Of a stretch of 64,000 nt of DNA, positions 2,336 to 47,886 are shown in pieces. Position 1 is the first letter of the stretch. Every line of letters starts with the position of its first letter. The DNA comes from a virus. Position numbers and translations under genes: made by a program. The notes beneath the pieces were generated by a model. The model did not search any database. It saw nothing but the letters and a program-made list of their open reading frames with translations, and had not been told where the DNA came from. The stretch lies in IMG/VR virus record IMGVR_UViG_3300025087_000038, positions 62,001 to 126,000 of that record. The stretch is one strand, 5' to 3'.

Positions 2336-2473
2336 ATGAAAATTAAGGTAGAGTTTATAGTTGAATCAGCTGATTATGGTGAAGAGGAATTTAGAAAGGA
2401 AATTGAAACCCTTATTAAAGATATTGACCCCGAGACAAAACTTTTAAGTTTTGAGATGCGCGAGATATCATGA
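2336..2473 (+). CDS. small acidic protein, 45 aa
   Basis: A short ORF with a strong AAAGGAGGT site directly after a promoter core. It ends by overlapping the queE start (ATGA). It looks like a small ferredoxin-like alpha/beta fold (MKIKVEFIVES, then EIETLIKDIDPE), but I do not recognise it. As first gene after the promoter it is probably co-expressed with queE. Confidence 0.65.
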   Translation: MKIKVEFIVESADYGEEEFRKEIETLIKDIDPETKLLSFEMREIS

Positions 2474-3183
2474 TAAAACTAAATGCTGAAGAGAAAACAT
2501 TCTTTAGTATTCAAGGAGAAGGACTTCAGATAGGTAAACCTGTAGTATTTGTTAGGATGGCCGGTTGTAATTTCCGTTGTCGGTGGTGTGATACGGTCTA
2601 TGCTCTAACAACAGCTGGGGCATTAGAGCTAACAACAGCCCAGTTGATGCGAGAAATAAGTCAGTATGGCTGTAAAGATGTAATTCTTTCAGGTGGCGAA
2701 CCTTTGATTTATCTGAAGAATGGGTTAGAGGAATTGGTAGATAGTTTATTAGGAAATTGCTACGATATTCAGTTTGAAACTAATGGTATTGTTTTTCCAG
2801 AATCTTTATCTCACCTTAGAATTTTTTGGAGTGTAAGTCCAAAGTTAGGGTCTGCTGGGGATGGTAGTGAAAGAACCTGGAATAATATTCAAAGTTACAT
2901 TGACAAATGTCCTGGTAGACTTCAAATTAAAATAGTAATTGCTAGTAAGGGGGATTTTAAAGAACTATTTGAAGAAAAATTATTAAGGTTTGAAGATATA
3001 AAAAGGAAAAGAATTCCTTTAATTCTTCAACCAGAGGGGCAATACGAATTGGTGGAGTATCGGCAAAAGTGTGAAGACTTAGTTAAACTGGTAAAGGAAA
3101 ACTGGCAATTAGTTAAGGATTACAACTTAAGGGTTCTGTTTCAGTTTCATAGATTTATCTGGGGTGTAAGGAGAGGCGTTTAG
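2470..3183 (+). CDS. queE: 7-carboxy-7-deazaguanine synthase, radical SAM
   Basis: QueE converts 6-carboxytetrahydropterin to 7-carboxy-7-deazaguanine with SAM and a 4Fe-4S cluster. The N-terminus FFSIQGEGLQIGKPVVFVR and the cluster motif CNFRCRWCD (CxxxCxxC, about residues 35-42) are diagnostic, followed by SGGEPL and an ETNG strand. Its 237 residues are normal for the family. It starts on the ATGA overlap with the preceding small gene and is followed by queC, then the DpdA-like and folE genes. It is the second visible step of preQ0 synthesis here; QueD, which supplies its substrate, is not in the window. Confidence 0.93.
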   Translation: MIKLNAEEKTFFSIQGEGLQIGKPVVFVRMAGCNFRCRWCDTVYALTTAGALELTTAQLMREISQYGCKDVILSGGEPLIYLKNGLEELVDSLLGNCYDIQFETNGIVFPESLSHLRIFWSVSPKLGSAGDGSERTWNNIQSYIDKCPGRLQIKIVIASKGDFKELFEEKLLRFEDIKRKRIPLILQPEGQYELVEYRQKCEDLVKLVKENWQLVKDYNLRVLFQFHRFIWGVRRGV

Positions 3184-3220: not shown

Positions 3221-3454
3221 ATGGAATTGTGGAATGGTGTTTCTGTCAGAAAAAGAGTTGCTGAAGTAAACATGAGACGCAAAATAATAGAAGGAGAGCA
3301 CCCTTTTTCTGAGTGTATAACCACAATGTTGAAAACCCCAAAACAATGTTTGAGCAAAAAGTGTATTATTGGGTTATTGATAGATGTAATAGAAAAACAA
3401 AAAAGAAGGAGAAAGTATGAAAGCGGTTTGTTTGTTAAGTGGCGGATTAGATAG
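3221..3454 (+). CDS. possible small basic protein overlapping queC
   Basis: A 77-residue ORF between a promoter core and queC, overlapping the queC start by 38 bases in another frame. The ribosome binding site is weak (GAAGGGC). The basic C-terminus is largely forced by the queC leader. It may be real, or simply the untranslated leader of queC. Confidence 0.35.
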   Translation: MELWNGVSVRKRVAEVNMRRKIIEGEHPFSECITTMLKTPKQCLSKKCIIGLLIDVIEKQKRRRKYESGLFVKWRIR

Positions 3455-4115
3455 TGGCACGACAGCAGCAATAGCAAAAAGTCAAGGTTATGATTTGTAC
3501 TGCATTAGTGTAAACTACGGTCAAAGACTAAGTAAAGAGTTAGAAAGAGCAAAGCGGGTTGTAAAGGCTTTAGAGGTAAAAGAACACAAAGTTTTAGACC
3601 TTTCTTTTCTAAAAGAACTAACAAAAGGGGCAACAGCCTTAACTGATGAAACAATAGAAGTACCGAAAGACAGAAATTTAAGTGAAATGTCAGCTAAGAT
3701 TCCAATAACTTATGTTCCAGGTAGAAATACAATTTTACTTAGCATTGCAATGAGTTACGCAGAGAGCATAGACGCTGAAGCGATTTTTATTGGAGCGCAT
3801 TATTTGGACTATTCTGGATACCCAGATTGTCGTCCAGAGTATTTTCAAGCTTTACAAAAGGTTATAGAATTAGGTACTAGAGTAGGAACAGAATTAGGAA
3901 AACCAATTAAACTTGAAACCCCGATTTTGATGTATAGTAAAAAAGAAGTCATTAAGAAAGGTTTAGACTTAGAGAAGCAGCTGTGTGTTGAATTTCTCAA
4001 ATACACTTGGAGCTGCTATGAAGGGTTGGATAAGCCTTGTGGTACTTGTGATAGCTGTAAGATACGGCAAGCAGGCTTTGACGCTTTAGGAATAATTGAC
4101 CCTGCTTTTTTATAA
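3417..4115 (+). CDS. queC: 7-cyano-7-deazaguanine (preQ0) synthase
   Basis: QueC uses ATP and ammonia to turn 7-carboxy-7-deazaguanine into preQ0. The PP-loop SGGLDSGTT is at the N-terminus, VPGRNTILL in the middle, and the C-terminal zinc ligands fall in a C-x8-CGTCDSC arrangement. The 232 residues are full length. A good GAAGGAG site precedes the ATG. With QueE, FolE and the DpdA-like enzyme this points to a deazaguanine base destined for phage DNA rather than tRNA. Confidence 0.93.
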   Translation: MKAVCLLSGGLDSGTTAAIAKSQGYDLYCISVNYGQRLSKELERAKRVVKALEVKEHKVLDLSFLKELTKGATALTDETIEVPKDRNLSEMSAKIPITYVPGRNTILLSIAMSYAESIDAEAIFIGAHYLDYSGYPDCRPEYFQALQKVIELGTRVGTELGKPIKLETPILMYSKKEVIKKGLDLEKQLCVEFLKYTWSCYEGLDKPCGTCDSCKIRQAGFDALGIIDPAFL

Positions 4116-5714: not shown

Positions 5715-5923
5715 TAAAATTACCAAAAGGATATAAGGCAGTTAAGGATAGCACTGTAGGAATAAGTTACGTTAATAAAAATGGAAATATTGTATTTCAG
5801 CACCCCAAAGACTCGGATGTTACAAGGCGGTGCTTAAAAGAATTTATTAGAGTACGTAGAATAAGAGAAAAGGAAGCGCAAAAATTACAAGCAAAAATAG
5901 GCAAAGGAGGAGTAAATGGATAA
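5711..5923 (+). CDS. small basic hypothetical protein, 70 aa
   Basis: Overlaps the stop of the DpdA-like gene (ATGA) and the start of folE. Basic C-terminal helix ([17 protein letters not shown]). Not recognised; co-translation with the deazaguanine genes is likely. Confidence 0.6.
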
Positions 5924-6476
5924 AGAAAAAATAATTAAGGGGGTAACACAAATATTAGAAGGACTAGATGCAGATTTAAGTTTACCTGGATTAAAGGATA
6001 CCCCAAAAAGAGTAGCTGAAACATATTTAAAATTGTGCGGTGGCGATGAAGAAACCGTTGAAGAGATACTTGGTAGGACATTTGTTGATGAAGCAACGGA
6101 TGAACTAATTTTAGTAAAAAATATAGATTTCTTTTCATTATGCGAACATCATCTTTTACCTTTCTATGGAAGAGCGCATATAGGTTATATTCCTCGAGAT
6201 AGAAAAGTTTTGGGGTTAAGTAAAGTGGCCAGATTAGTAGAAGTTTATTCAAGAAAATTACAACTACAAGAAAGAATGACTTCACAAATTGCTCACGCAA
6301 TAGATAAACACCTCTCCCCTTGGGGAGTAGGTGTAATAATAGAAGCAAAACATCTTTGTATGGCAGCGAGGGGCGTAGAAAAAGTAAATCATGAAACTAC
6401 TACGAGTTGTATGTTAGGAGCAATGCGAAATAACTATGCTGCAAGAGAGGAGTTTATTTCCCTTATAAAAAGATGA
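5916..6476 (+). CDS. folE: GTP cyclohydrolase I
   Basis: Opens the guanine ring of GTP to give dihydroneopterin triphosphate, the first step toward deazaguanines and folate. [15 protein letters not shown], the zinc-site motif LCEHHLLPF and the C-terminal [11 protein letters not shown] block are all present. The 186 residues match type IA enzymes. It has a strong AAAGGAGG site inside the preceding gene and overlaps the methyltransferase start. The neighbours indicate the preQ0 route rather than folate supply. Confidence 0.95.
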
Positions 6477-29564: not shown

Positions 29565-30392
29565 ATGGAAAAGAAATATATTTCTACACAGAAAGAGTTA
29601 GATGCTGTAATAGGCTCTAACTGGGAAGGATTGGTTATTATTAAGGATACCAAAGAAGAAATAAATATTAGAGATAATGGTAAGTGTTTGATACATGTTT
29701 CTGGGAACGCTCAAATAGGGACTGTTTCTGGGAACGCTCAAATAGGGACTGTTTATGAGAACGCTCAAATAAGGACTGTTTATGAGAACGCTCAAATAGG
29801 GACTGTTTATGAGAACGCTCAAATAAGGACTGTTTCTGGGAACGCTCAAATAAGGACTGTTTCTGGGAACGCTCAAATAGGGACTGTTTATGAGAACGGG
29901 TTGCTTAACGTATATTCTTCTTCGGTAACTTTGAAGAATCTTTTGGGTAATGCTATTGTAATTTGCTATGAAAAACCCAAGATTTTGAAAAAGTCTAAAT
30001 CAGTAAGGATAGTAACTACTAAGAAATGTGTAGAATCTGCTTTCTCTTTACAGAAGTTTATTGATAGATACGAAATACAAGAAGAAGGAGATTTTCTTAT
30101 ACTGTATAAGTCTGTTAAGAATGATTATACAGACTTTTATTCTGGGAAGATCAAATATGAAGTGGGTAAAGTAGTTGGTTGCCCTGATTGGGATCCTGAT
30201 TACGAAGAAGAATGTGGCAAGGGGTTGCATTTAGCTGATTCTCCTTTATCTGCTTTGGCATTTAATGAAGGTAAAGTTTTAAAATGTAGGGTAAAGAGAA
30301 AAGATTGCAAGACTGTAAATAATCCTGAATATCCTACTAAAGTTAGATGTAAAGAGGTAGAAGTAATAGAAGAGGTAGAGTCTTTCTTTTAA
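29565..30392 (+). CDS. nonapeptide-repeat protein with DUF7666-like C-terminus
   Basis: 275 residues. Residues 46-108 are seven exact-length copies of a nine-residue unit, [SY][GE]NAQI[GR]TV, plus a worn eighth. This periodicity suits a small beta-solenoid with stacked Asn/Ile/Val. The C-terminal part contains GKVVGCPDWDPD and CGKGLHLADSPLSALAFN, then KVLKCRVKRKD, like a phage domain (DUF7666) of unknown function. It is expressed from its own promoter. The repeat may be an adhesive, DNA-mimic or scaffold surface; nothing decides. Confidence 0.7.
   Translation: MEKKYISTQKELDAVIGSNWEGLVIIKDTKEEINIRDNGKCLIHVSGNAQIGTVSGNAQIGTVYENAQIRTVYENAQIGTVYENAQIRTVSGNAQIRTVSGNAQIGTVYENGLLNVYSSSVTLKNLLGNAIVICYEKPKILKKSKSVRIVTTKKCVESAFSLQKFIDRYEIQEEGDFLILYKSVKNDYTDFYSGKIKYEVGKVVGCPDWDPDYEEECGKGLHLADSPLSALAFNEGKVLKCRVKRKDCKTVNNPEYPTKVRCKEVEVIEEVESFF
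29700..29888 (+). repeat. seven tandem 27-bp in-frame repeats
   Basis: Units start with TCTGGG or TATGAG and share AACGCTCAAATA, then GGGACTGTT or AGGACTGTT. Only these two sites vary, in a mosaic order. Exact 27-base period keeps frame if copies are gained or lost. A degenerate unit follows to 29915. Confidence 0.95.
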
Positions 30393-36795: not shown

Positions 36796-37050
36796 ATGAT
36801 AATCAAAGGTAGATATTTAGAAGGTGGAATTTTAGACCCAATAGAAATAGATGATTCAAATATTGAATATGTTGGTGTAACCAGTTATACTGGGGGTGAT
36901 AGGTATATTAATTTTTTAATGAAGGATAGGGGTCATTACTACTCATTTTTTACTTTTCATATTTCCGGTATACCTACAGCTGTTGTAGATACAGATACTA
37001 TGGATTACATAGAGGAAGAAATAAAACAGTGGAGAAAGGGGGAAAGATGA
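36796..37050 (+). CDS. hypothetical protein, 84 aa
   Basis: Strand-rich (IEYVGVTSYTGGDRYINFLM, YYSFFTFHISG) with an acidic C-terminal helix. Overlaps the RtcB start by 4 bases. Not recognised. Confidence 0.58.
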   Translation: MIIKGRYLEGGILDPIEIDDSNIEYVGVTSYTGGDRYINFLMKDRGHYYSFFTFHISGIPTAVVDTDTMDYIEEEIKQWRKGER

Positions 37051-38279
37051 AATTTCTAAACGAAGGTAGAGTACATGTTAAGATGTGGTTAGACGATGTA
37101 GAAGATTCGGCACTAAAGCAGATAAATAATTTGGCTGATCTTCCATTTGCGTTTCATCATGTAGCAATTATGCCGGATTGCCATTCTGGGTATGGTATGC
37201 CTATCGGTGGAGTTCTTGCAACGAAAGGCGTAGTATTGCCGAATGCTGTTGGAGTTGATATTGGGTGTGGTATGTGTGCAGTAAAGACATCTTTAAGAGC
37301 AGAGCAACTCGATAAAGAAACGCTGAAGAAAATAATGGGCAAGATACGAGAAGTTATTCCAGTAGGTAAAGATCACCAAAAAGAAAAACAAGATGACAGC
37401 TTAATGCCAAAAGGGGAATGTGATTGGGTATGGGATTATCCTGGGATATATCCAGTAGTTAGTAGGGAGTATCAATCAGTACTTCACCAGTTGGGAACTT
37501 TAGGCGGGGGCAACCACTTTATTGAAGTACAGAAAGATCAAGAAGGTTTTGTTTGGATTATGATTCATTCCGGCAGTAGAAATCTTGGTAAAAAGGTGGC
37601 GGACCACTATAACAAAATAGCAAAAGACTTGAACGAACGGTGGTATAGCCAAATACCCCAAGAATGGGATTTGGCATTTCTTCCTATTGAAACTACAGAA
37701 GCAAAAGGCTATATGCGAGAGATGCGATATTGTGTAGATTTTGCATTAGCTAATAGGAAGTTGATGCTGCAAAAAATTATACATTGTTTTGAAACAGGTA
37801 TTACCGATAAAGCAATATTTGAAGACAAAAGTGACTATTGTTATGGAGGAGCCGAAGATCTTGAGTTAATGATAAACATAGCCCACAACTACGCTGCGTG
37901 GGAACATCATTTTAAAGAAGATGTGATTGTTCACCGGAAAGGTGCAACGTTAGCAAGGGAAGGAACAGTAGGAATCATTCCTGGCTCACAAGGTAGTAAA
38001 AGTTACATTGTTTGGGGGAAAGGAAATCCTGATAGTTTTATGAGTTGCTCTCATGGGGCTGGAAGAAAGATGAGCAGAAGTAAGGCGTGTGCAACATTAG
38101 TTTTACAGGAAGAAATAGAAAAACTTGATAGCCAAGGTATAGTTCATGGAATACGGCATCAGCAAGACTTGGATGAGGCTTCTGGGGCATACAAAAACAT
38201 AGATGACGTAATGGAAAACCAGAAGGACTTGGTGGAAATAGTAACCGAACTCCAGCCTTTAGCAGTAATAAAAGGGTAA
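37047..38279 (+). CDS. rtcB: RNA-splicing ligase RtcB
   Basis: 410 residues from the ATG at 37047 (site AAAGGGGGAAAG). RtcB hallmarks in order: PDCHSGYGMPIGGVLAT, VGVDIGCGM with the metal-binding Asp/Cys, GGGNHFIEV, MIHSGSRNLG and the guanylated-His motif SHGAGRKMSR near residue 345. RtcB joins 2',3'-cyclic phosphate or 3'-phosphate ends to 5'-OH ends, the breaks left by many tRNA-cutting toxins. With Rnl5 and the tRNA-nucleotidyltransferase-like protein it forms an RNA repair set. Confidence 0.95.
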   Translation: MKFLNEGRVHVKMWLDDVEDSALKQINNLADLPFAFHHVAIMPDCHSGYGMPIGGVLATKGVVLPNAVGVDIGCGMCAVKTSLRAEQLDKETLKKIMGKIREVIPVGKDHQKEKQDDSLMPKGECDWVWDYPGIYPVVSREYQSVLHQLGTLGGGNHFIEVQKDQEGFVWIMIHSGSRNLGKKVADHYNKIAKDLNERWYSQIPQEWDLAFLPIETTEAKGYMREMRYCVDFALANRKLMLQKIIHCFETGITDKAIFEDKSDYCYGGAEDLELMINIAHNYAAWEHHFKEDVIVHRKGATLAREGTVGIIPGSQGSKSYIVWGKGNPDSFMSCSHGAGRKMSRSKACATLVLQEEIEKLDSQGIVHGIRHQQDLDEASGAYKNIDDVMENQKDLVEIVTELQPLAVIKG

Positions 38280-40842: not shown

Positions 40843-41069
40843 AGCGGTTAGCAAAAGGTAAGTATTATCATCTTACATTTGGGTTTAAAAGTTTTCAGAA
40901 TACAGATAAGACTACTGGGACAGATTGCGATATTTATATAGACGGAGAGAAATGGTTTTCGGCTCCTACATTTAAAGAAGTTTTCCAAAAAAGGCACGAC
41001 TTTCTGACAGAACCCAAAACTGAAGAATTACCACAAAACATTCCTGATGGGGTCGGCGGGAAGATATGA
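40812..41069 (+). CDS. hypothetical protein, 85 aa
   Basis: AAGAAAGGAG site in the previous gene. KLKRLAKGKYYHLTFGFKSF and TGTDCDIYIDGEKWFSAPTF form a small alpha/beta fold common in phages. Not assigned a role. Confidence 0.6.
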   Translation: MQFEEARKKLKRLAKGKYYHLTFGFKSFQNTDKTTGTDCDIYIDGEKWFSAPTFKEVFQKRHDFLTEPKTEELPQNIPDGVGGKI

Positions 41070-41725
41070 CTAAACAAGAATTAGCCCAAAAGATAGACTT
41101 AACTCTATTAAGACCCGATCATACAAAAGAAGACATAAAGAAATTGTGTGAAGACGCTAAAGAATATGGTTTTTATGCTGTTTGCATTCCTCCGTATAGG
41201 GTATTGGATGTAGTAGAATATAAAGAGAAGGCGAAAGGGAATTTTAGGATTTGCACAGTTTTAGATTTCCCATTTAGCGGGGGTATAGCATTCTATCCAA
41301 ATTTTCTTGTAGATATACCATTAAACGTAGATGAAGTGGATATACCCTTGAATATTTCCTTATTTAAGGATAAAAAATATGATGCTTGTGTAGAGGTAAT
41401 GAAGGAAATAAAGAAATGGAATGCCCGAGTATTTGTGAAAGGGATAATAGAAACATCATATTTAACAGATACAGAAATAGGAATTGCTGCTAAGTTAGTT
41501 GAACAAGCAGGTGTTAATATGGTAAAAGCCAATACTGGTTTTGGATTACGTGGCGTAGCCCCAAATGATGTAGAGGTAATAAAAAAGAACTGTACCATAC
41601 CAATAAAAGTAGCTGGCGGAATAAAGACAGTGGAACAAGTAAATACCTTTTTAGATCTAGGGGTAAGTAGGATAGGAAGCAGTAATGGGGTAGAAATAGT
41701 AAAAGATTGGAATGGAGGGAACTAA
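41066..41725 (+). CDS. deoC: deoxyribose-phosphate aldolase
   Basis: 219 residues. DLTLLRPDHTKEDIKKLCED at the start, VCIPPYRV, VKANTGFG with the Schiff-base Lys (near residue 153; the usual form is VKTSTGF) and IKVAGGIKT with the second Lys (~176). It splits 2-deoxyribose-5-phosphate to glyceraldehyde-3-phosphate and acetaldehyde, linking nucleoside salvage to central metabolism. In a phage it may recycle host deoxynucleosides or run in reverse. Overlaps the previous gene by ATGA. Confidence 0.88.
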   Translation: MTKQELAQKIDLTLLRPDHTKEDIKKLCEDAKEYGFYAVCIPPYRVLDVVEYKEKAKGNFRICTVLDFPFSGGIAFYPNFLVDIPLNVDEVDIPLNISLFKDKKYDACVEVMKEIKKWNARVFVKGIIETSYLTDTEIGIAAKLVEQAGVNMVKANTGFGLRGVAPNDVEVIKKNCTIPIKVAGGIKTVEQVNTFLDLGVSRIGSSNGVEIVKDWNGGN

Positions 41726-41728
41726 CAA

Positions 41729-41890
41729 ATGTTTTGTGATGATTGTGGAAGAGAAATGTTAAGGAAAGGGGATTATAGCCCACCGGTATGGAAATGTTAC
41801 CAGTGCAATATAGAAATAGAAGAAGATACAGAAGATGAGTTTATAGACAAACAAACCACTTTTGATAACGATAATGGGGAGCAGATATGA
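41729..41890 (+). CDS. zinc-ribbon microprotein, 53 aa
   Basis: GGAGGG site three bases after deoC. MFCDDCGREML ... KCYQCNIEIEED is a clean four-Cys ribbon with an acidic tail. Ends by ATGA with the next gene. Confidence 0.62.
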   Translation: MFCDDCGREMLRKGDYSPPVWKCYQCNIEIEEDTEDEFIDKQTTFDNDNGEQI

Positions 41891-42261
41891 AACGAGTATA
41901 TGTTGCGGGATTATATAGTAGAAACAAAGATGGGGAAATGGCCAATGTTATAGAAGTTTTAGACAACATGCGAATAGGAATGAGGGTTGCAACAGAAGTA
42001 TTTCTTGTCGGATATGCTCCTTTTTGTCCTTGGTTGGATTACCATTTTACTTTAATGCTACGAGAAGGAGAGAAATTAGAAATTGAAGACTATTATAAGT
42101 ATAGTCTTGCTTGGGTAGAAGTATCAGATGCCTTATTACTTTTGTCTGGGTGGGAAAACTCTCCCGGTACCAAGAATGAAGTAAGAAGAGCCAAGAAACT
42201 TAGAATACCAATTTGCAAAAATTTAGAAGAATTGCAGAAAAAAGTGCCTTGGATGGATTGA
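41887..42261 (+). CDS. nucleoside 2-deoxyribosyltransferase-like (DUF4406/DUF1937-like)
   Basis: 124 residues of Rossmann-like type. KRVYVAGLYSRNKDGEMANV at the start, FCPWLDYHF in the middle, then AWVEVSDALLLLSGWENSPG with the S-x-G-x4-S end typical of phage proteins of this fold. Relatives move deoxyribose between bases or hydrolyse nucleotides. The nearby DeoC supports a deoxyribose role. The catalytic Glu cannot be assigned surely. Confidence 0.7.
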   Translation: MKRVYVAGLYSRNKDGEMANVIEVLDNMRIGMRVATEVFLVGYAPFCPWLDYHFTLMLREGEKLEIEDYYKYSLAWVEVSDALLLLSGWENSPGTKNEVRRAKKLRIPICKNLEELQKKVPWMD

Positions 42262-42282: not shown

Positions 42283-43311
42283 ATGAACATAGGAATGATG
42301 TCAACTTGGGGACAACATTGTGGTGTGTTTGGTTACACCGAACAATTGGTAGATGTTTTAAATGCTAATGGGCATCAGGTTATTGTGTTTGGGAACAGGC
42401 CTTATGGAAAAAGGGATCTTGAAAAGCCCGGATGGTCTACGGGGTACCAACCTAATACTGGTACCTATTTTGATTGTTTTGGAACAGGCTTTCATCCAAA
42501 AGAAGAACAATCAATAGATGTTGAGAAAATAAAGTATCTTATATCTGACGATTTCCTTTTAGGTAAACCAGATGTTTTTCATATTCAATATCAAGATTAT
42601 TTGTATCCAGATAAGCAGGGATTTGATAAACTCCTTTCCCTCTTAAAAGGAAAGGGAGTAAGGTTAGTTGTTACGCAACATGATTCCTGTATTAGCCCAA
42701 ATATAGATTGGGGTAAATTTGATGTAATAATTAAACATGGTTGTGAATTTAAAAAGAATGAGAAAAATGCAACAATGCCAATAGGAATACCAGAGATTGA
42801 TTACAAACCTTTATCGAGGAATAAAGTATTGAGCAGTTTTGGTATGGGTAGAAATGATAATGAAACATGTAAGAAGGTATGTGATAGATTGGGTTGGACA
42901 TTTAGGTTTCATAACTCTCAGGATAAATGGGTACCAATAAAAGAGTTGATGAACTGGTTACAAGAAGGAGATGTAATAGCGTTGATTTATCCACCTACTA
43001 ATGCAGAGGTTAGTAGTAGCGCACTAAGAGTTGCTTTAGGAACCGGAAGACCAATTATAGTAAGTGCTACAAATTGGTTTAACGATACTTTGTTAGGTAT
43101 TAATTGCGAGCATCGAATGTTTGGAGTAAACTGGACTAATAGAGAACAAGAATTAGAGGCTTGGTTAAGACTTATAGATGATAATACAATTGACAATATG
43201 GATATAGATGATGAAAGCTTACAGTATGGTTTAGAAAGAACACAAGAAAAATATAGTTGGAAAAACATAGTAAAACACTACGAGGATGTATATGAAAATA
43301 CTAAAAGTTGA
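42283..43311 (+). CDS. GT-B glycosyltransferase
   Basis: 342 residues. The start GMMSTWGQHCGVFGYTEQL is paralogous in plan to the genes at 30571 and 53953. The donor half has SSFGMGRNDNETCKKV, VIALIYPPTNAEVSSSALRV and GRPIIVSATNWFND, a weak GT4 layout lacking the standard E-x7-E. It is therefore a divergent transferase. The site GATAGGAG is good. Confidence 0.76.
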   Translation: MNIGMMSTWGQHCGVFGYTEQLVDVLNANGHQVIVFGNRPYGKRDLEKPGWSTGYQPNTGTYFDCFGTGFHPKEEQSIDVEKIKYLISDDFLLGKPDVFHIQYQDYLYPDKQGFDKLLSLLKGKGVRLVVTQHDSCISPNIDWGKFDVIIKHGCEFKKNEKNATMPIGIPEIDYKPLSRNKVLSSFGMGRNDNETCKKVCDRLGWTFRFHNSQDKWVPIKELMNWLQEGDVIALIYPPTNAEVSSSALRVALGTGRPIIVSATNWFNDTLLGINCEHRMFGVNWTNREQELEAWLRLIDDNTIDNMDIDDESLQYGLERTQEKYSWKNIVKHYEDVYENTKS

Positions 43312-43876
43312 AGACACATTAAAAAGTATCTTTGAAACTTTACAGGTAGTAGTAGAAGAACTAAAGAAGGGAGAGAAGTTTATTTTGGTTGACTTTTCTA
43401 ATCTTCGTTCTAAAGGATGCAAAACAGATACAGTAGGAGTAACAAGTGGGGTAGTTAGTTTTATTAGTGTTTATGATACTGGGATAGCGCCTGTTATGGG
43501 GGAAGGTAAGGTTTATTGTATTTTATCTGTTAACCACCCGGAGATTGAAAACTTTTTAACTACGAAGTTTCAAAACCTTTTATTAGGAGTAATTCTAGAG
43601 GACACCTTTGTGGATGCTGTTAGAAGAGGCGACATTGTAAACTATATGTTAGTTGATCCATTTTCAAAGAATAAAACTTGGATTACAATGGAACGGTTGA
43701 CTTCTTTGTTAGTAATTGGTAACCTAATTCCATTTAGACGAGAAAAAGAAGAGTTAAAAGAAATGGGAAAGATAGAATTACTAAATTTAAAAAATAGATG
43801 CCCTGAATGTAATGGGCAAATATCCCTGGATAACTCTACTTGTTTAGACTGCGGATACAGCTCCTGTAGAGGTTAG
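43286..43876 (+). CDS. class II ribonucleotide reductase-derived mini-protein
   Basis: 196 residues. VDFSNLRSKGCKTDTVGVTS, GVVSFISVYDTG, ILSVNHPEIENFLTTKF and then VDAVRRGDIVNYMLVDP align by eye with consecutive blocks of B12-dependent NrdJ (FSrLRPkG, SGPVSFM.vFD, vnHPDI.eFI, LinPr). The C-terminal CPECNGQISLDNSTCLDCGY with a final SSC copies the NrdJ zinc-binding tail. The catalytic barrel with the active-site Cys and finger loop is missing, so it cannot reduce nucleotides by itself. It could regulate, scaffold or compete with host NrdJ. Overlaps the glycosyltransferase by 26 bases. Confidence 0.68.
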   Translation: MYMKILKVEDTLKSIFETLQVVVEELKKGEKFILVDFSNLRSKGCKTDTVGVTSGVVSFISVYDTGIAPVMGEGKVYCILSVNHPEIENFLTTKFQNLLLGVILEDTFVDAVRRGDIVNYMLVDPFSKNKTWITMERLTSLLVIGNLIPFRREKEELKEMGKIELLNLKNRCPECNGQISLDNSTCLDCGYSSCRG

Positions 43877-43888
43877 GGTAGTAGAGTA

Positions 43889-43934
43889 AGCAGGGTCTTG
43901 TGGTTCCTACAGGGGTTCTTCATAGGGTCCTGCT
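43889..43934 (+). repeat. inverted repeat with internal direct repeats
   Basis: AGCAGG (43889-43894) pairs with CCTGCT (43929-43934). The loop has two similar 13-14-base stretches (GGTTCCTACAGGG and GGTTCTTCATAGGG) and a smaller TGTGG/CTACA hairpin. It sits in the only gap of this stretch, before a ribosome site. Confidence 0.45.
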
Positions 43935-44786: not shown

Positions 44787-45920
44787 ATGAATTACAAAGA
44801 CTATACTGATAAATACTTTCTGAGAAGCAAAGAAATACTGGAGAAATGTAATATAAATCCTTTAGTTAGATACCAGGTATTTGTAAGAGAGGGCGGCCCC
44901 ATGGATTATGGTTGTATAGAGGAGGCGGTAGATTTTATAAAGGGCGTAGTTGGAAACAAAGTTAAAATATTTGCATTGTTAGATGGTAGTTGGTGTACAT
45001 CCCCGTGCGAATCCGTAATGACCCTAGAGGGAAGAGTCCAAGATAAAATAGATTTAGAAACAATATATCTTGGTATAATCTCAAATGGATTTACGGGTAA
45101 TGTGGATTTAAGAGCTGTAAGAAAAGACGCTATAGAAATGGTAAAAGCTGCCGAAGGCAAACCAGTATTGTATATGGGGGCACGACATTTTCATTATAAT
45201 TTAGATGTATCGATATCACAGATTTGCAAGGACGCGGGATTTGCTGGGTGTTCAACTGATGTAGGCGCTAAGGTTTGGGGCAATGAAGGAATGGGGACAA
45301 TGCCACATGCACTGATACTGGCTGTTGCAATACATTTAAAGGAGAAAGAAGGCGCGTTTGGAAATAAACTAGAATCTAATCCTACTGTAGTAGCTGGAAA
45401 AATATTTGATGGCTTTGTAGATAGAAAGGTAGAACGAATAGTTTTAATAGATACATTTAATAAGGAGATAAGTGATAGTATAGAAGTAGCAAGAGAAGTG
45501 AAAAATTTGTATGGGGTAAGAATAGATACTTGCGGTGAGAACTATGTAGAAGGCTATGGTAGTGATATAGATATGGAATTACTAGGTCCTGAATATAGAG
45601 GTATAAAAGGGGTGTCAATAGATGGGGTATGGAGACTAAAGAAAGCGTTGATAGATAACGGATTTGGTAAAGTAAAAGTGGTAGTATCATCGGGATTCAA
45701 TGCGAAGAAAATCAAAGTATTTATAGAGGCTGATAAACTATTCCGGGATAAATATGGTATACCAATGTTTGATATTATAGGAACGGGTAGTGTAGGTTCA
45801 CCAGTAATGGCAACGTCAGATATAGTTGCATATTTTAGTGAAAAAGAAAATAGGTGGGTACCTTTTTCAAAAGTAGGTAGAGGAGAAACAGCATCAGAAG
45901 GGTTGGTAGAGGTAAAATGA
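44787..45920 (+). CDS. pncB: nicotinate phosphoribosyltransferase, archaeal-type
   Basis: 377 residues. WGNEGMGTMPHALILAVAIH, IVLIDTFNKEISDSIEVARE, VRIDTCGENYVEG and VVSSGFNAKKIKVF with FDIIGTGS match the type II phosphoribosyltransferase barrel of the short archaeal-type enzymes. The reaction joins nicotinate and PRPP to nicotinate mononucleotide. Nicotinamidase is three genes downstream, so the two together turn nicotinamide into NaMN. The substrate could instead be a related pyridine. It is the first gene of its promoter unit. Confidence 0.85.
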   Translation: MNYKDYTDKYFLRSKEILEKCNINPLVRYQVFVREGGPMDYGCIEEAVDFIKGVVGNKVKIFALLDGSWCTSPCESVMTLEGRVQDKIDLETIYLGIISNGFTGNVDLRAVRKDAIEMVKAAEGKPVLYMGARHFHYNLDVSISQICKDAGFAGCSTDVGAKVWGNEGMGTMPHALILAVAIHLKEKEGAFGNKLESNPTVVAGKIFDGFVDRKVERIVLIDTFNKEISDSIEVAREVKNLYGVRIDTCGENYVEGYGSDIDMELLGPEYRGIKGVSIDGVWRLKKALIDNGFGKVKVVVSSGFNAKKIKVFIEADKLFRDKYGIPMFDIIGTGSVGSPVMATSDIVAYFSEKENRWVPFSKVGRGETASEGLVEVK

Positions 45921-47202: not shown

Positions 47203-47886
47203 ATGAAAAAAGAAAAACTGATATTCTGGAATGTAGATACCCAATACGACTTTATGAGGAACGACAAAAGTTTTAAAGGGGCATTACCAATAAAAGGAGC
47301 AAGAAAGATAGAACCAAACTTGCGGAGACTTACTAACTTTACAATTAAAAATGACATAACAATAGTTAACACCGCTGATTGGCATACGCCAGAGTCAACA
47401 GAGTTTTCATTAACACCAGATTACTTTGAGACTTTTCCACCACATTGTTTACAGCATACACATGGCGCAATGTTTGTTCCGTCTACCCGTGATTTTATTG
47501 ACTGTAGTTTTTACTGGAAAGATGATTGGTACGGTAAAAAGCAAGCATTTGAAATGTTACCAGACGCTAAGAATATAGTTATCTACAAGGATGATTTTGA
47601 CGTGTTTAAAGGTAATCCATATACAGATAGAATTTTAAAGATACTGAAACCTGCAACAGTTGTGGTATATGGGGTGGCTACGAATGTATGTGTAAATTTT
47701 GCCATTAAAGGATTGCTAAAAAGGAGGATAGAAGTCGTAGCTGTAGTAGACGCTATGAAAGAACTACCTGGATGTGATAATACTGATATCTACAAAGTTT
47801 GGGCCAAACAAGGAGTACAGTTGAATTTTACAAAAACTGTAATTGCCGGGATTGAGGAATATAAGAAAGAAGGGAGGATAAAATGA
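47203..47886 (+). CDS. pncA: nicotinamidase
   Basis: 227 residues of the isochorismatase-like fold. FWNVDTQYDFM (catalytic Asp), NTADWHTPEST with the D-x-H metal pair, FPPHCLQHTHGAMF, the IVIYKDDFDVF Lys and GVATNVCVNFAIKGL with the catalytic Cys are in the expected order. One usual metal His is replaced (EST instead of NH in the loop), so metal binding may be altered. It hydrolyses nicotinamide to nicotinate, the substrate of the upstream phosphoribosyltransferase. Confidence 0.86.
   Translation: MKKEKLIFWNVDTQYDFMRNDKSFKGALPIKGARKIEPNLRRLTNFTIKNDITIVNTADWHTPESTEFSLTPDYFETFPPHCLQHTHGAMFVPSTRDFIDCSFYWKDDWYGKKQAFEMLPDAKNIVIYKDDFDVFKGNPYTDRILKILKPATVVVYGVATNVCVNFAIKGLLKRRIEVVAVVDAMKELPGCDNTDIYKVWAKQGVQLNFTKTVIAGIEEYKKEGRIK

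Follow-up and report, generated by a model that had tools for sequence, protein, structure and literature searches.

A mini-protein made from pieces of a class II ribonucleotide reductase in a metagenomic virus

The window analysed here is a stretch of 64,000 nucleotides from a virus record of 127,007 bases (IMGVR_UViG_3300025087_000038). Within it lies a short open reading frame (ORF), here called mini-NrdJ, whose product matches parts of the class II ribonucleotide reductase (RNR) NrdJ (Table 1). The ORF sits in a run of genes that encode, in order, DeoC, a deoxyribosyltransferase-like protein, a protein that resembles a glycosyltransferase by eye, mini-NrdJ, a glycosyltransferase and a nicotinate phosphoribosyltransferase-like protein. 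The last of these (44787-45920), with a nicotinamidase/isochorismatase-like protein encoded nearby at 47203-47886, could possibly serve in NAD salvage. Elsewhere in the window, genes for QueE, QueC and FolE (2470-3183, 3417-4115 and 5916-6476) make up most of the 7-deazaguanine (preQ0) pathway, which recalls phages that modify DNA guanines. An RtcB-family RNA ligase is encoded at 37029-38279, its nearest families containing inteins, and a tRNA-Phe called at 12502-12573 carries the anticodon AAA, the usual one being GAA. A 275-aa protein, encoded at 29565-30392, has many NAQIGTV/YENAQI repeats in the translated ORF start.

Table 1. Features at and around the mini-NrdJ locus, in window coordinates.
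Feature	Position	Strand	Details
DeoC, deoxyribose-phosphate aldolase	41066..41725	+	TIGR00126, 1.1e-45
Nucleoside 2-deoxyribosyltransferase-like (DUF4406)	41887..42261	+	phrog_355, 1.5e-15
Shine-Dalgarno-like GAGG	43282..43285	+	6 nt before ATG 43292; read from sequence
Mini-NrdJ ORF	43286..43876	+	196 aa, ATG to TAG
Likelier mini-NrdJ start	ATG 43292		product 194 aa, begins MKILKVED
First half of RNR barrel, aa 5-140	43298..43705	+	profile and structure matches
Asp10, effector-ribose anchor (Asp141 of T. maritima NrdJ)	43313..43315	+	kept; D in 31/32 sequences compared
Arg41, effector-phosphate anchor (Arg171 of T. maritima NrdJ)	43406..43408	+	kept; R in 31/32 sequences compared
Loop 2 position (NrdJ KQGxRRRG)	43487..43516	+	APVMGEGKVY: eroded, 4 residues shorter
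Linker, aa 141-170	43706..43795	+	predicted β-hairpin
NrdJ-type zinc ribbon	43799..43867	+	C172, C175, C186, C189 (proposed zinc ligands) and C194; N183

The portal protein of the wider record finds its nearest match among phage records in Bacillus phage G, and Bacillus phages, some of them SPO1-like, are among the matches of its DNA polymerase; all of these are distant. A search for related phages through the neighbouring genes or through a helicase/terminase-like gene gave no close kin. The portal protein (903 aa; L005:6396-9107) contains an internal stretch, at about residues 260-710, that matches other profiles and is probably an intein; its matches include PHROGs of thymidylate synthase and of PhoH, together with phage genes that carry a nucleotidyltransferase or HNH endonuclease annotation. 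By PF00303, no thymidylate synthase was detected in the 127-kb record. A further protein of 990 aa (L007:9060-12032) shows an unusual pairing, with residues 108-468 resembling terminase large subunits and residues 462-888 resembling DNA helicases.

The mini-NrdJ ORF has the character of a coding sequence. There is no stop over its 196 codons, the frame is unbroken, and its start overlaps the upstream gene by 26 nt, the stop of that gene lying at 43309-43311. Because the GAGG motif is well spaced only for the ATG at 43292, and not for the one at 43286, the product is probably the 194-aa form. In the correct frame, the GC content at the three codon positions is 0.417/0.337/0.278, compared with 0.457/0.337/0.283 for the phage genes. 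The codon log-odds score is 0.214. Among 48 phage genes this value marks the lower quartile, and it is higher than for 97% of genes after simulated decay by 170 substitutions. Just 3' of the gene, a 15-bp RNA stem without a clear U-run can be drawn at 43889-43934; the stability of this stretch was not above that of its own shuffles.

Residues 5-131 of mini-NrdJ match the NrdJ barrel over its first half. The match to PF02867, the RNR barrel domain, is above the cut-off (E 2.2e-10) and spans profile positions 5-132 of 523, while PRK08665, the NCBIfam model of B12-dependent RNR, matches in two stretches (4e-17) and phrog_84, a PHROG RNR family, matches at 1.7e-14. The best solved relative is the Thermotoga maritima NrdJ (1xje, 1.5e-6). 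An earlier reading of this DNA from its sequence only had pointed to three consecutive NrdJ-like blocks, which are all present (FSNLRSKG, residues 37-44; SGVVSFISVYD, 54-64; VNHPEIENF, 82-90), and to a NrdJ-type zinc tail, which is present as well (CPEC...CLDCGYSSC, residues 172-194). The tail does not follow the blocks directly, as had been supposed, residues ~141-170 intervening between them. Scored against a profile that describes the NrdJ zinc tail and was built from related phage proteins, the last 25 residues reached 21.5 bits, a value attained by 0 of 4000 shuffles. Mini-NrdJ is a mini-protein built from class II RNR pieces, and its ancestor is NrdJ.

Structure prediction agrees with this assignment. 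With an alignment of relatives, AlphaFold2 gave a model with a mean pLDDT of 87 and a pTM of 0.73, in which the half-barrel is mostly above 90 and residues 161-167 are weak. The barrel rows of that alignment were cut before the junction, because a mixture of barrel and tail fragments led MAFFT to put the junction in the wrong place. The best PDB match of the model by Foldseek is the T. maritima NrdJ (1.3e-9), on which it superposes with a Z score of 17.9 and 2.1 Å over 153 residues, a strong predicted similarity to the NrdJ fold. From the single sequence, with no alignment, AlphaFold2 reached a pLDDT of only 33, and the fold is therefore one that we infer through homology. The retained part comprises strand A, helix A, strand B, loop 1 with helix B, strand C and strand D, followed by a hairpin and a helix. 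Within the linker, a hairpin at residues 148-159 superposes on the barrel at what we take to be either strand E or strand J (the target ranges end at 317 or 626); sequence profiles for residues 141-170 backed neither placement. The sequence-only reading had the catalytic barrel core deleted, which holds for the second half with its catalytic loop and fails for the first half-barrel, which is still there.

To compare individual residues, we aligned mini-NrdJ with 31 longer RNR relatives. The N-terminal domain is wholly absent, the protein beginning at the site of the first active-site cysteine. In the T. maritima NrdJ, Cys134 and Cys333 are the active-site redox pair and Cys322 is the radical cysteine. 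The first redox cysteine is replaced at the ORF start and the second falls in the missing half. Past residue ~140 and up to the tail, linker excepted, the second half-barrel and the NPCGE active-site loop are missing, leaving Asn320, Cys322, Glu324 and Cys333 without counterpart. Asn320 and Glu324 are substrate residues in the T. maritima enzyme, for which a role of Arg207 has likewise been described (PMC4728125). The NrdJ loop 2 KQGxRRRGAN, which includes Arg207, is not retained, and the GGGTG motif of the half-barrel is altered. Mini-NrdJ is catalytically dead and would be unable to reduce nucleotides.

The elements that remain are of another kind. The retained part includes helices A and B, the elements through which RNR dimerizes and holds its effector (PMC4390871), and the counterparts of Asp10 and Arg41 are effector anchors in the dimer interface of the T. 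maritima NrdJ (PMC4728125). Residue K27 stands opposite a further effector anchor, Lys158, in an ungapped alignment of helix A with the T. maritima protein; in most other alignments it faces a glycine. Six cysteines are present in the tail of the S. nassauensis NrdJ, where four are proposed as zinc ligands and two as a redox pair (PMC5704485). All four ligand cysteines are retained in mini-NrdJ. Within the pair, Cys-945 corresponds to C194 and Cys-933 to N183, and with an asparagine at this position the electron shuttle of the tail is therefore broken. The loss of catalytic elements and the retention of dimer, effector and zinc elements appear non-random with respect to function, a pattern that is suggestive rather than a statistical proof because the diagnostic residues are so few. 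B12 and thioredoxin had been put forward as possible binding partners. Neither idea has support here. We identified no B12-binding element, one member of the proposed redox pair is lost, and for the six-cysteine tail of the S. nassauensis NrdJ no interaction was seen with either thioredoxin or glutaredoxin (PMC5704485).

Homologs of similar length, a search for which the sequence-only reading had proposed, were not found in the collections searched. The mini-NrdJ protein gave no relatives in viral_contigs; a tblastn search of phage and plasmid records gave RNR genes, and no miniature, as the annotated matches listed; and genome_contigs gave two full-length archaeal NrdJ proteins and no miniature. 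With the alignment as query, at least 80 viral loci were found, some with ORFs that end at contig ends. The complete ORFs among the matches listed were full-length RNRs of 501-1156 aa, with one exception, a 390-aa NrdE-type ORF of phage SPbetaL1. Two gapped DNA patterns, with the barrel motif 228-258 bases before the NrdJ zinc tail, had no match in viral_contigs; such patterns test near-identical spacing only, and the second does match the window. In the NrdJ of Moorella phage MTATph1 (L010:2782-5310), an apparent intein splits the active-site motif into NPC and GE, and the annotated start (2959) drops ~59 residues of open frame.

These searches leave mini-NrdJ as one copy in one metagenomic virus record, and the explanation that best rivals a working protein is decay, in which a phage nrdJ was lost by deletion and a functionless leftover stayed open by chance. 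The single copy and the lack of similar-length relatives are in line with decay, as are the change of ~47% of the near-invariant positions, the loss of one tail redox cysteine and the frequent splitting of phage RNR genes (PMC3653736). Mini-NrdJ still has the conserved residue in 26 of 49 near-invariant columns, and a hydrophobic residue in 38 of 42 hydrophobic ones. We simulated neutral change by mutating the DNA of the relatives without selection until 26 of the 49 near-invariant residues remained. At that point, 6% of the runs were stop-free, 6% were as hydrophobic as mini-NrdJ (38/42), and 0.5% were both; when the mini-NrdJ gene itself was decayed to 45% amino-acid change, 0.3% of the runs were stop-free. 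These figures are generous to decay because frameshifts were left out of the model, and the argument for selection presumes that the positions now eroded were still intact when the catalytic half was lost. Also at odds with decay are the retained zinc cysteines, the lack of frameshifts, the gene-like composition and codon score, the usable ribosome site and the overlap with the upstream gene. Since the ORF is stop-free, its codon usage is phage-like and neutral runs reach its state in at most 0.5% of cases, we consider it likely, though not proven, that mini-NrdJ is under selection. The idea of a folded remnant under selection is supported as to a predicted fold and probable selection, and no decay can be seen in the one copy. 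We regard slow decay as somewhat unlikely, though it stays a serious rival.

Our best reading, to which we assign a probability of about 0.4, is that mini-NrdJ derives from NrdJ, has no catalytic role and binds, by way of the dNTP-site interface, to RNR dimers or to itself. Provided that it works at all, it probably acts as a regulator or decoy and not as an enzyme. We infer that it is functional with an RNR as its partner, and action as a partner or decoy through the dimer interface is the best open idea. We propose RNR dimers as the target since it is the dimer surface of RNR that has been retained, and since herpesviruses set a precedent with inactive RNR homologs that serve as interaction proteins (PMC5469499); the neighbouring genes for DeoC and the deoxyribosyltransferase-like protein also count in favour of a regulator. 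On this proposal, a class II nrdJ gene would have been reduced by loss of the N-terminal domain and by an internal in-frame deletion that removed the second half-barrel; what is left would be a half-barrel that folds and continues into the zinc tail. Helices A and B, which serve in dimer formation and cradle the effector dNTP, would pair with the host NrdJ or with a second mini-NrdJ at the specificity site. Such pairing could alter dNTP synthesis in the infected cell by shifting its oligomeric or allosteric state, with the zinc ribbon retained as a structural or docking element. A bolder form of the proposal, in which an RNR has been cut to a free-standing specificity-site module, a half-barrel able to dimerize and to sense dNTPs, that hijacks or inhibits the host class II RNR from within the dimer interface, is one that we doubt.

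Other uses for the same parts can be conceived. The protein could be a free-standing dNTP sensor, homodimerizing through helices A and B, binding a dNTP where the specificity site used to be, and signalling through the ribbon to other phage proteins without any RNR partner. Preservation of Asp10, Arg41, both helices and the zinc ligands would fit such a sensor, as would the lack of another RNR in the record, but loop 2, which helps to read effector identity in class II enzymes, is eroded, and we find a sensor quite unlikely. It is very unlikely, in our view, that the ribbon is the working part, binding nucleic acid or protein as a generic zinc ribbon with the half-barrel as scaffold. All four zinc ligands are kept and the tail bears a weak likeness to the generic ribbon UPF0547 (2e-4, below the cut-off), yet the half-barrel core is kept as well as the tail and no other nucleic-acid-binding features were seen. 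Split RNRs are common among phages (PMC3653736), but that mini-NrdJ is part of one, with other pieces elsewhere in the phage, is highly improbable: the 127-kb record, which may be incomplete, has no second match to PF02867 and none to PF13597 (class III RNR), and a simple split could not yield a product in which the front of the barrel is fused to the extreme C-terminal end. We give scarcely any credence to an assembly error that took out the middle of a normal nrdJ gene; the sequence is a metagenomic virus record, yet no tool result indicates an error, the half that is retained itself shows erosion of active-site positions (a shorter loop 2, an altered GGGTG motif and the missing tail cysteine), and neither the absent N-terminal domain nor the tight upstream overlap is expected from a simple artefact.

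If functional, the non-catalytic NrdJ derivative that we favour would be a phage counterpart of the inactive R1 homologs of herpesviruses, derived from the B12-dependent class. It would mean that the dimer and effector half of an RNR can persist alone, as a small natural module for allosteric dNTP binding separate from catalysis, and it would hint at phage control over the host dNTP supply.

Among known systems, mini-NrdJ is closest to NrdJ itself, both the dimeric T. maritima type and the types with a C-terminal zinc finger, sharing the first half-barrel, helices A and B, the Asp141/Arg171 anchors and the four zinc cysteines. Unlike NrdJ, it is without the N-terminal domain, the NPCGE loop and the active-site cysteines, its loop 2 is eroded and its tail redox pair broken, and it has 196 aa against 501-1156 aa in the complete relatives among the matches listed. 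The separate NrdJb protein, an IscU-like domain with a zinc finger that works with NrdJa (PMC9669993), likewise carries the NrdJ zinc finger on a small polypeptide, whereas in mini-NrdJ the finger is fused to the front half-barrel through a linker of ~30 residues and the record holds no NrdJa. Short RNR-derived ORFs also arise in phages from introns, inteins and homing endonucleases (PMC3653736), but those are contiguous gene pieces with the rest nearby, while mini-NrdJ is without its middle and the rest is absent. The betaherpesvirus R1 homologs HCMV UL45 and MCMV M45, which have lost most catalytic residues and are kept for other tasks (PMC5469499), resemble mini-NrdJ as viral homologs of an RNR large subunit without most of the catalytic residues; their homology is to the large subunit of cellular class I enzymes, whereas mini-NrdJ is a phage derivative of class II, cut down to a half-barrel.
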